From positions 748,412-812,411 of the forward strand of contig NZ_JAPWGX010000002.1 in NCBI RefSeq assembly GCF_027213965.1: 64,000 nt of DNA, read 5' to 3'. A program made the position numbers and the translations under genes. Below the pieces are notes generated by a model. The model ran no database searches and was not told the DNA's origin. It was given only the letters and a program-made list of their open reading frames with translations. Positions 60,185 through 62,064 of the stretch are shown one piece after another. Within the stretch, counting starts at the first letter, position 1. The number at the start of each line of letters is the position of its first letter. Source of the DNA: Maritalea porphyrae. GTDB taxonomy: Bacteria > Pseudomonadota > Alphaproteobacteria > Rhizobiales > Devosiaceae.

Positions 60185-60683
60185 CTGGTTGATGCTTGGC
60201 TTTGGGGTGTTGGTCTTGGGATTGCTCAATTTTGGCGTGGTGCAAAAAGAGCGGGTGATTGCCAATGGCGAGCTCGTTTATTTGGAGTTGCGGCCCGTTG
60301 ATCCGCGATCATTGTTGCAGGGTGATTTTATGCGGCTCGGGTTCGAAGTTGAAAATGTGGCGGCTGCTGAAATTGGTGCAAAAGTGCGCAACGGCAATAT
60401 TGTGATCAGTCCGGACCAAAATGGTGTCGCGCAATTTGCGCGATTGGATGATGGTGCCGCGCTGGGCGATGCAGAATATTTGGTGCATTTCAGCAAAACC
60501 TCATCGCGTCCAACCTTGGTCCCCAATAGTTATTTGTTTCAGGAGGGGGAGGGCGAGGCCTTCTCCGAGGCAGAATATGCGGTTTTTGTTTTTGGTGCTG
60601 ACCGGCGTGATTATGTACTACGCGGATTGGCGGACGAAAAGTTTCAACTGATCAATCCACGTGAAACTTTGGGGTTTAAGTAG
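60177..60683 (+). CDS. GDYXXLXY domain-containing protein
   Basis: A 168-aa protein with one N-terminal membrane helix (WLMLGFGVLVLGLLNFGVV) and a periplasmic domain with QGDFMRLGFEV, the GDYXXLXY-type motif (here GDFMRLGF). It ends with a REDYVLRGLADEKFQL-like block. It completes the DUF2157-DUF4401 trio. The ATG is 60177, or 60171 two codons earlier; both lie inside the end of the DUF4401 gene behind GGAGG. Function unknown. Confidence 0.88.
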   Translation: MRNWLMLGFGVLVLGLLNFGVVQKERVIANGELVYLELRPVDPRSLLQGDFMRLGFEVENVAAAEIGAKVRNGNIVISPDQNGVAQFARLDDGAALGDAEYLVHFSKTSSRPTLVPNSYLFQEGEGEAFSEAEYAVFVFGADRRDYVLRGLADEKFQLINPRETLGFK

Positions 60684-60737
60684 GCTAAGAATTGACCGGC
60701 TTTGTGCATCTTTATGTGGGCGCACGGAACGGATAGG

Positions 60738-60770
60738 GGCAAATGCGTTATTGACTCTTAAGCATTTGCC
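60738..60770. promoter_or_regulatory. Inverted repeat in the asd leader region
   Basis: GGCAAATGC and GCATTTGCC are perfect 9-bp arms around a 15-base spacer containing TTGACT. It lies 46 bases before the Thr/Lys/Met-rich ORF. It may be an operator over a -35 element or an RNA hairpin. No T run follows, so it is not a good terminator. Confidence 0.55.
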
Positions 60771-60816
60771 GTTAGAAAAGGCGACAGTTATTTTTTGACC
60801 AAAGTGTGAGCATTTG

Positions 60817-60924
60817 ATGCGCGTGTTTGTTAAAACAGCGATGAAGATGAAGACCATGACCACCACCGGTGGCGTGGCCAAAGCACTTGCAACAACAAAA
60901 AAGACCACCACCAAAACCGTTTAA
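60817..60924 (+). CDS. Candidate Thr/Lys/Met-rich leader peptide upstream of asd
   Basis: A 35-codon ORF, too short for normal gene calling, starting MRVFVKTAMKMKTM and ending KKTTTKTV. Eleven Thr, seven Lys and four Met make up 22 of 35 residues, all end products of the aspartate pathway started by the asd enzyme. Thr and Lys codons are concentrated at the end (ACA ACA AAA AAG ACC ACC ACC AAA ACC), as in attenuation leaders. It stops 102 bases before asd. The ribosome site is weak. I see no T-run terminator, so if it regulates asd it may act on translation. A small basic protein is the alternative. The rest of the 60684-61026 gap holds the inverted repeat and possible hairpins near 60925-61000. 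Confidence 0.5.
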   Translation: MRVFVKTAMKMKTMTTTGGVAKALATTKKTTTKTV

Positions 60925-61026
60925 CCGTCTTCCCTGGGCTTTCCCCCGACAGGGTGGAGGGTCAAAACGACGGCCGCAACGTTCTTAAAATGTTGTGCGG
61001 GGGGTGAAGACAAGGATCAAACGATT

Positions 61027-62064
61027 ATGGGTTACAAAGTAGCGGTTGTCGGCGCCACAGGAAATGTGGGTCGCGAAATGCTTTCAATTTTGGCAGAACG
61101 TGGATTTCCTGCAGACGAAGTGGTTGCGATTGCATCATCTCGTTCGGTTGGGCGCGAAGTTTCATTTGGCGACAAAACGTTGAAGTGCAAAGATTTGCAG
61201 CACTTTGATTTCACGGGCGTTGATTTTGCTTTCATGTCTGCTGGCGGTACCATTTCAGAAAAATGGGCACCTATTATTGGCGCGCAAGGCTGCATCGTTA
61301 TCGATAATTCGTCCGCATGGCGATACCACCAAGACGTTCCTTTGATCGTGCCTGAAGTGAATGCCCATGCGCTTGATACTTACATGGCCCTTAATGATCG
61401 TATGAACATTATCGCCAACCCGAACTGCTCGACAGCGCAGCTTGTTGTGGCACTAAAGCCCTTGCACGATTTTGCGAAAATCAAACGTATTGTGGTTTCG
61501 ACTTATCAGTCTGTTTCTGGTTCAGGCAAAGAAGCTTCTGACGAGTTGTGGAACCAGACCAAAGGCATTTATGTGACCGACATGCCAACGCCGTCCGTTT
61601 ACACAAAACAAATCGCTTTTAACGTGATCCCGCACATCGATGTCTTCATGGAAGATGGGTACACTAAGGAAGAGTGGAAAGTTTTGGCTGAAACCAAAAA
61701 AATGCTCGACCCAAAAATCAAAGTGACATGCACGGCCGTGCGCGTGCCAGTGTTTGTTGGGCACTCTGAAGCCGTCAACATCGAGTTTGAGAACGAGATT
61801 ACAGCCGACGAAGCGCGCAATATACTGCGTGAAGCACCTGGTGTTGCTGTTGTGGATAGTCGTGAAGATGGTGGCTATATCACCCCTGTTGAAGCTGCGG
61901 GTGAAGATGCGACTTACATCAGTCGTATTCGTGAAGACGCAACGGTTGAGAACGGCCTGAACATTTGGGTTGTTTCAGACAATTTGCGCAAAGGCGCAGC
62001 GCTGAACACGATACAAATTGCTGAATGCATTATCGAGCGCGGATTGATGACCAAAGCGGCATAG
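61027..62064 (+). CDS. asd: Aspartate-semialdehyde dehydrogenase
   Basis: A 345-aa enzyme reducing aspartyl phosphate, the branch to Lys, Thr, Met and diaminopimelate. It has GATGNVGREMLSIL (NADP-binding), the catalytic Cys in NPNCSTAQL, SGSGKEASDELW, and late TCTAVRVPVFVGHSEAVN with the substrate-binding His. An AAGGA site lies upstream. The gene follows a Thr/Lys/Met-rich leader ORF and ends in a terminator. Confidence 0.97.
   Translation: MGYKVAVVGATGNVGREMLSILAERGFPADEVVAIASSRSVGREVSFGDKTLKCKDLQHFDFTGVDFAFMSAGGTISEKWAPIIGAQGCIVIDNSSAWRYHQDVPLIVPEVNAHALDTYMALNDRMNIIANPNCSTAQLVVALKPLHDFAKIKRIVVSTYQSVSGSGKEASDELWNQTKGIYVTDMPTPSVYTKQIAFNVIPHIDVFMEDGYTKEEWKVLAETKKMLDPKIKVTCTAVRVPVFVGHSEAVNIEFENEITADEARNILREAPGVAVVDSREDGGYITPVEAAGEDATYISRIREDATVENGLNIWVVSDNLRKGAALNTIQIAECIIERGLMTKAA

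Follow-up and report, generated by a model that had tools for sequence, protein, structure and literature searches.

A Conserved Threonine/Lysine Leader Peptide Element Upstream of asd in Maritalea porphyrae and Its Relatives, Likely a Ribosome-Mediated Attenuator

A Leader Peptide Rich in Thr and Lys Precedes asd

We analyzed a stretch of 64,000 nucleotides (nt) from contig NZ_JAPWGX010000002.1 of Maritalea porphyrae (positions 748,412 to 812,411; hereafter the window) and found that the gene for aspartate-semialdehyde dehydrogenase, asd, is preceded by a real and widely conserved leader-peptide element, a variant that combines Thr and Lys codons, a covarying hairpin where the leader stops, and a probable pseudoknot, and that has no terminator-like site. 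Asd supplies the pathways to Thr, Lys, Met, and Ile and also contributes to the cell wall by way of diaminopimelate. The gene occupies positions 61027–62064 on the forward strand, and its identity is supported by the NCBIfam models NF011456 (E value 6.7e-152) and TIGR01296 (E value 3.5e-136), both of which are matched above cut-off; a Shine–Dalgarno sequence, AAGGA, can be read directly at 61012–61016 (forward strand). Between asd and a gene encoding a GDYXXLXY-domain protein lies an open reading frame (ORF) of 35 codons on the forward strand (60817–60924), which starts with ATG at 60817, ends with a stop codon at 60922–60924, and is also open in relatives. The initial annotation had counted 11 Thr, 7 Lys, and 4 Met among these codons and had pointed to the Thr/Lys-rich end, and both statements are accurate: the C-terminal ten residues, TTKKTTTKTV, are encoded at 60892–60921 (forward strand) by the run of Thr and Lys codons to which we refer as the tail. 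Nine of the last 12 codons encode Thr or Lys (T+K = 9), a value that no sequence attained when the 300 nt before asd were dinucleotide-shuffled 2,000 times; the maximum in these shuffles was 7.

The reading of this ORF as a leader peptide is strongly supported by sequence comparison. We collected the asd upstream regions from 60 of 61 genomes of relatives, one genome having no match, together with 80 named loci, and removed the duplicates L032 and L043, resulting in a set of 138 upstream regions. From each region the ORF with the most Thr and Lys in its last 12 codons was taken, and T+K of at least 5 was scored as positive; because the ORF is selected by this count, shuffled sequences are the fair control for enrichment in the tail. 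By this measure 117 of the 138 regions are positive; the same procedure scores 49 of 2,760 dinucleotide shuffles as positive and none of the 138 reverse complements. Misses were counted whatever their cause, including contig ends and shifted starts, and locus L087, in which a shortened Thr tail has a T+K of 4, is counted as a miss. The sequences are related by descent and many are from Rhizobium; they contain 76 distinct 11-codon tails. A leader was identified at 31 of the 36 loci from the family of the window, Devosiaceae, and at 74 of 78 named loci, and it also reaches Rhizobium, Agrobacterium, Sinorhizobium, and Roseibium. The possibility that this is a chance ORF of skewed composition could appeal to the number of short ORFs in the window, where they are common, and is refuted by the conservation in relatives and by the shuffle controls, so that we give it practically no weight.

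The remaining five family loci are L025 (genome G008) and L030, L118, L123, and L141 (genomes G022, G027, G013, and G032, respectively). The latter four belong to one genus (g9) with genomes of 2.0–2.1 Mb, in which the leader seems to have been lost.

Five other genomes represent the genus of the window, and among named asd genes the one from Maritalea myrionectae matches best (84% protein identity); its upstream region (L032) is identical to that of locus L007. The initial annotation had proposed that a broken ORF in close relatives would speak against a leader peptide; the frame is unbroken in all five genomes, and the Thr/Lys tail is well kept in L003–L006, where T+K is 8–9 of 12. Outside this sample, we considered 29 further loci from the class, two of them from the same order; 150 additional genomes had a match, and these 29 are the asd loci that matched best. 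Four of them reach a T+K of 5 or more, namely L173, which is from the same order, L181, L185, and L193. L181 and L193, which are from the class but outside the order of the window, have strong tails with a T+K of 8, APTTTKKTKTVA and TTPTTKTKTGITV, before asd.

The Tail Is Conserved as Thr and Lys Residues

Over all positive loci the tail consists of 40% Thr (558 of 1,404 residues) and 23% Lys (320 of 1,404), as opposed to 6% and 2%, respectively, in the preceding 23 codons. As judged by eye, only the tail is conserved across families; the N-terminal half is highly variable, with some common pattern within the Rhizobiaceae, where many tails follow K-T-(K/M/T)-A-K-T-T-T-K-T-V. That Thr and Lys codons are the conserved control codons of the ORF is clear from this comparison. 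Counting backward from the stop codon, codon −5 encodes Thr in 106 of the 117 leaders, as ACG in 55, ACC in 45, ACT in 4, and ACA in 2. The initial annotation had predicted synonymous changes at conserved codons, and these are seen: synonymous Thr codons replace one another at positions −4 to −6 while the residue is kept, and Lys and Thr interchange. Among the 76 distinct tails, the codons starting with A at positions −11 to −2 encode Thr 347 times, Lys 186, Met 23, Ile 14, Ser 3, Asn 2, and Arg once, and other codons in this range include those for Ala (61), Pro (24), Leu (24), Gly (17), Arg (CGN, 13), Val (12), and Ser (TCN, 10). A single base change separates the codons for Asn, Ser, and Arg that start with A from codons for Thr or Lys; these neighboring codons are nearly absent nevertheless, which argues that the residues themselves matter. 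Given the synonymous Thr codons and the interchange of Thr and Lys, selection appears to act on the residues, beyond the DNA alone.

Met, which the initial annotation had counted among the sensed amino acids, shows no such enrichment and is rejected as a sensed residue: it accounts for 33 of 1,404 residues in the tail compared with 141 of 2,679 before it. That Met and Ile outnumber the Asn, Ser, and Arg codons starting with A may in part be due to C-to-T mutation of Thr codons.

A Probable Homolog in Sinorhizobium Is Reported to Be Translated

The initial annotation had stated that no leader peptide is known for asd, which is not quite right. Among small proteins of Sinorhizobium meliloti, Hadjeras et al. 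(2023; PMC10117765) report SEP5, encoded by an ORF in the 5′-untranslated region of an "aspartate dehydrogenase" gene; six Thr codons and three Lys codons lie close to the 3′ end of this ORF; they found SEP5 to be translated, called it "possibly a leader peptide", and described it as "conserved only in Sinorhizobium". The leaders at our Sinorhizobium loci L095 and L110 end in KTTAKTTTKTV, which also has six Thr and three Lys, and from its composition and place SEP5 is very probably the same asd leader. The passages on SEP5 are confined to one genus and give no RNA structure, whereas the element described here extends over much of the order and includes a hairpin and a promoter box. The idea of a leader peptide is therefore in print for one genus, and the wide conservation and the RNA anatomy go beyond that account.

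The detection of the tagged Sinorhizobium product (PMC10117765) is also what would be expected if the ORF encoded a small protein that acts in trans, as peTrpL of Sinorhizobium does. Against this stand the variable N-terminal half, the restriction of conservation across families to the C-terminal Thr/Lys run, and the absence of any Pfam match for the leader peptide; a trans-acting protein is accordingly very improbable in our estimation.

A Promoter Box Is Conserved Upstream of the Leader

A promoter is predicted on the forward strand upstream of the leader, with a −35 element TTGACT at 60751–60756 and a −10 region TTAGAA at 60772–60777. Comparison identifies this as a conserved box: in 113 of the 117 relatives TTGAC is found at a distance of 117–223 nt before the leader stop, compared with 12.6% expected after base shuffling, and T and A are found at +22 and +23 from the box in 79% of sequences each. 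A simple sigma-70 consensus scan did not list the TTGACT promoter. Judged from this promoter, the leader ORF would begin about 30 nt into the transcript.

The initial annotation had noted a perfect inverted repeat preceding the ORF. The repeat consists of two 9-nt arms, GGCAAATGC at 60738–60746 and GCATTTGCC at 60762–60770, that straddle the −35 box and extend as far as the −10 region, and this position on the predicted promoter places it probably upstream of the transcript; it is rejected as an RNA structure and is instead a candidate operator. In L003, a similar but imperfect inverted repeat is visible by eye at the same place.

A Covarying Hairpin Begins at the Leader Stop Codon

For analysis of RNA structure, the 117 positive sequences were divided into 51 of Rhizobiaceae type, 51 of Devosiaceae type, and 15 that were too divergent and were set aside by hand. 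Removal of near-identical sequences left 30 and 44, respectively, and after L068 was moved the sets comprised 43 Devosiaceae-type and 31 Rhizobiaceae-type sequences. Immediately after the leader stop codon lies strand A (60925–60936, forward strand), which forms the 5′ arm of a hairpin, P1, the 3′ arm of which is strand C (60950–60963, forward strand; located by stem search). In the window P1 has eight pairs and one mismatch. The comparison leaves P1 well established: in 39 of the 43 Devosiaceae-type sequences A:C outranks every other stem past the leader stop and begins no earlier than the last base of the stop codon and no later than 2 nt beyond it, and the native A:C pairing outdoes all 5,000 between-species swaps in the 43 sequences and all 50,000 in a set of 15 sequences, one per genus. 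Representatives for the 15-genus test, and for three of the tests of strand D described later (34 representatives, automatic windows, and p = 0.014), were chosen by hand. A counterpart is found in Rhizobiaceae, where a 10-bp stem of GUCUCUGGCC with GGCCGGGGAC begins 1 nt past the stop, and 9 of its 12 distinct versions are fully paired.

Strand C is also the 3′ arm of an alternative hairpin, B:C (60937–60963, forward strand), in which 60937–60947 form ten pairs with 60953–60963; it is the best local stem in the window and is part of the minimum-energy fold. B:C is no better than swaps in either set (1,085 of 5,000 in the 43 sequences; p = 0.32 in the 15-genus set). RNAalifold yielded no consensus structure for the mixed set and recovered just a few pairs in the other sets, because the pieces of the element vary in spacing.

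Strand D near the asd Start May Pair with the Hairpin Loop or the Tail

The loop of P1 contains strand B (CCCCCG, 60943–60948, forward strand), which can pair with strand D (CGGGGGG, 60998–61004, forward strand), and the resulting B:D helix would be an H-type pseudoknot. Strand D lies 20–34 nt before the asd AUG in 39 of the 43 Devosiaceae-type sequences. The same helix occurs with different letters in relatives, as CUCUCCUCA/UGAGGAGAG in L120 and as CCUCUCCCG/CGGGAGAGG in L012 and L119. In the swap test B:D gave 0 of 5,000 over the 43 sequences, and over 34 hand-picked representatives, which include two of genus g1 and three of genus g12, p was 5e-5 by energy and 0.0016 by run length. With long windows, in which several helices are mixed, p was 0.014, and with automatic windows on the same 34 representatives it ranged from 5e-5 to 9e-4 over three window sizes; we rely on the energy and run-length values because the automatic windows sometimes took strand C for D. 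The B:D pairing has good but uneven support, weaker than that of P1, and a pseudoknot beside the asd start is its probable form.

Strand D can alternatively be engaged by the leader tail, which is able to pair with D and its surroundings and outdoes all swaps in the 43 sequences. Among control pairings in the same sequences, tail:C gave 4,086 of 5,000 and C with the region proximal to asd gave 4,905 of 5,000. In Rhizobiaceae a GCUCUCU in the B region is complementary to AGAGAGC about 5–8 nt before the AUG, and this pairing is used in the minimum-energy folds of five sequences.

The initial annotation had expected conserved competing helices. Of the pairings examined, P1 covaries, and B:D is supported over the 34 representatives and not over 15 genera; B:C is not above swaps, and folding with a masked ribosome footprint produced small shifts that differed in direction between the two types. 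The specific stretches that it had singled out, CCGCAAC (60974–60980) and GTTGTGCGG (60992–61000), are present and paired as a hairpin in the predicted fold (60974–61000, forward strand, overlapping D). A role of this hairpin as the main switch is not supported because the covarying helix is P1 and the hairpin varies in sequence and length among relatives.

A different explanation of these structures is that a protein or a small molecule binds a structured mRNA element. The ORF and its codons would then be incidental or contribute to folding, an interpretation already put forward for the LEU element upstream of leuA in actinobacteria (Seliverstov et al. 2005; PMC1262725). Such an element would account for the covariation of P1 and, in part, of B:D, and for the mostly single spelling of codons −3 and −2 (AAA in 95 of 117 and ACC in 104 of 117, respectively), and the LEU element provides a precedent. 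The synonymous exchange of Thr codons at −4 to −6, the interchange of Lys and Thr, and the near absence of Asn, Ser, and Arg codons starting with A are not what incidental codons would show, and no Rfam family was matched at gathering thresholds in 10 related loci. Taken together, we consider a ligand-bound element of this kind improbable.

No Terminator-Like Site Is Found, and the Element Appears Specific to asd

Within positions 60500–61200 we found no terminator-like site (shuffles of this interval contain 1.1 on average). Intrinsic termination is rejected for the window on this ground, and the interval does not contain the intrinsic terminator by which a classical transcription attenuator of the trp/thr type is defined. 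The initial annotation had preferred translational control to termination, and the absence of a terminator together with pairings near the ribosome-binding site fits this preference; the level at which control is exerted is one of our inferences. The main rival retains the same leader and the same codon sensing and assigns the outcome to transcription: Rho would load on C/U-rich RNA left exposed downstream of the leader stop, except when the fold or a paused ribosome conceals it, and transcripts would end before asd. The C/U-rich strands A and B immediately after the leader stop and the lack of an intrinsic terminator-like site in the window are as expected under control by Rho; the pairings, however, reach to 20–34 nt from the asd AUG in 39 of the 43 Devosiaceae-type sequences and to about 5–8 nt from it in Rhizobiaceae, where translation starts. 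Rho-mediated control is thus unlikely in our judgment, though less so than a ligand-bound RNA element.

With E values of up to 10 allowed, the interval 60500–61200 had a single Rfam match, sRNA41, with 16.9 bits against a gathering score of 45. An RNA model, R1, had 33 matches with E values of 1e-6 or less in the 61 genomes, all directly upstream of asd, and its matches elsewhere start at an E value of 3.8e-4; R1 has only three base pairs and was partly built from the same sequences. Upstream of hom, for homoserine dehydrogenase (16 loci), and thrC, for threonine synthase (15 loci), in 15 genomes, with the first start codon of the open frame taken as the gene start, no convincing Thr/Lys leader was found, and the best hom locus, L145, had a T+K of 5, which is near chance. 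As far as we looked, the element therefore stands before asd alone; lysC, dapA, and the met genes were not checked singly.

Proposed Mechanism

We favor, as the more probable reading, a ribosome-mediated attenuator of asd that senses charged tRNA-Thr and tRNA-Lys, and the following sequence of events is a likely way for it to work. The leader and asd would be transcribed from one promoter, and ribosomes would translate the leader up to the Thr/Lys run, which ends where P1 starts. Strand A directly adjoins the stop codon, so that a ribosome positioned there would cover A and an earlier pause would leave A free, ribosome footprint sizes being assumed here. With ample Thr and Lys, the ribosome would reach the stop and block P1 by covering strand A; after it leaves, the RNA would settle into a fold in which the region of the asd start is closed, by the tail with D and its surroundings in Devosiaceae and by GCUCUCU with AGAGAGC before the AUG in Rhizobiaceae. 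With Thr or Lys in short supply, the ribosome would pause in the tail, which would keep the tail out of the closing stem and leave A free; P1 could then form, strand B in its loop would capture D as a pseudoknot, and asd would be translated. That tail:D acts as the closing stem, that control is exerted on translation, and which way the switch works are all inferred from these pairings, and the proposed direction, in which a pause opens asd and fast passage closes it, is the one expected on physiological grounds.

Several observations weigh against the ribosome-mediated reading. Of 24 other families of the order, each represented by a single genome, 12 lack the leader, as do 5 of 36 loci of the family, and within the genus L007 has a weaker tail, GKKAEKKTTEIR, with a T+K of 6 of 12 and only two Thr. 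B:C is a better stem than P1 in four of the 43 sequences, the window among them (with L012, L023, and L112); the B:C stem of the window itself leaves our estimate for the favored reading unchanged because that estimate rests on the relatives. Among the pairings with strand D, p for B:D is 0.16 in the 15 sequences representing one genus each and, in 18 representatives from outside the family, 0.01 by energy and 0.07 by run length; p for tail:D is 0.23 in the 15-genus set. One control, A with the region proximal to asd, also scored low at 154 of 5,000, which means that a small count is not specific by itself, and strand D lies upstream of the Shine–Dalgarno sequence, not on it. Folding with the ribosome footprint masked, by a method that does not include pseudoknots, changed how accessible the asd start is by a mean of no more than about 1.2 kcal/mol, and in the Devosiaceae type (43 sequences, a set that still contained L068 and from which L028 was absent) a ribosome at the stop opened the asd start most, contrary to the model. 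Finally, mutations of the Leu codons of the LEU element were reported to be without effect on regulation (PMC1262725). In the Rhizobiaceae type (30 sequences), masked folding left the asd start on average 0.5 kcal/mol less open with the ribosome at the stop than with a pause at codon −4, as proposed.

Relation to Known Attenuators

The closest architecture is that of the LEU element, described by Seliverstov et al. (2005; PMC1262725) as a run of Leu codons that pairs with the Shine–Dalgarno box, a pseudoknot, and an alternative fold, the mechanism of which is left open in that account. The likeness, drawn from this description, is striking: other attenuator elements are missing, and analogous pairings are seen here, among which tail:D gives p = 0.23 with one sequence per genus. 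The LEU element belongs to another phylum, gene, and amino acid, and the conservation at the level of residues favors reading by the ribosome in the case of asd.

Two further systems resemble parts of the element. Like the thrL attenuator of enterobacterial thrABC, it has a Thr-rich leader peptide before a gene of the Thr pathway; thrL combines Thr and Ile codons with an intrinsic terminator that has a U-tract, whereas the asd leader combines Thr and Lys codons with the lack of a terminator-like site. In repY-repZ of plasmid ColIb-P9, translation of a leader ORF governs a pseudoknot just upstream of the next ribosome-binding site, as is proposed for asd, and there it serves the control of plasmid replication, with an antisense RNA and without amino acid sensing.

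Asd is not mentioned in the main text of PMC1273637, on RNA motifs of alphaproteobacteria, or in that of PMC2965389, on premature terminators. We recognized nothing further on an asd attenuator or a Thr leader among the literature matches listed, in which control of the asd level in alphaproteobacteria is hardly described. A broader proposal, which we hold tentatively and with somewhat less confidence than the attenuator as such, is that a pseudoknot-based translational attenuator is widespread in the Hyphomicrobiales, targets a branch-point enzyme, and senses several of its end products through a single run of codons (chiefly Thr and Lys, with Met and Ile as the commonest substitutes starting with A and with Asn, AGY Ser, and AGR Arg nearly absent), so that it would be a proteobacterial counterpart of the LEU element that works through the ribosome. 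By mixing Thr and Lys codons, one run would monitor two branches of the same pathway at once, and the translated homolog in S. meliloti, an organism that is tractable in the laboratory, would permit a direct test of pseudoknot-based control by amino acids.

Additional Hairpins in the Leader Region

In L018, L034, and L036 a small hairpin over the asd Shine–Dalgarno sequence is visible by eye (GGGAC-UGGA-GUUCC and GGAAC-CGGA-GUUCC) and is perhaps a second layer of control. A further hairpin is predicted within the leader ORF itself (60854–60877, forward strand; z score of −5.5 in the window). Such hairpins are in excess among relatives: in 25% of the 117 leaders none of 20 shuffles folds equally well, compared with about 5% expected. 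In L005, from the same genus, the sequence is different and a hairpin is nonetheless found at almost the same place inside the leader ORF.
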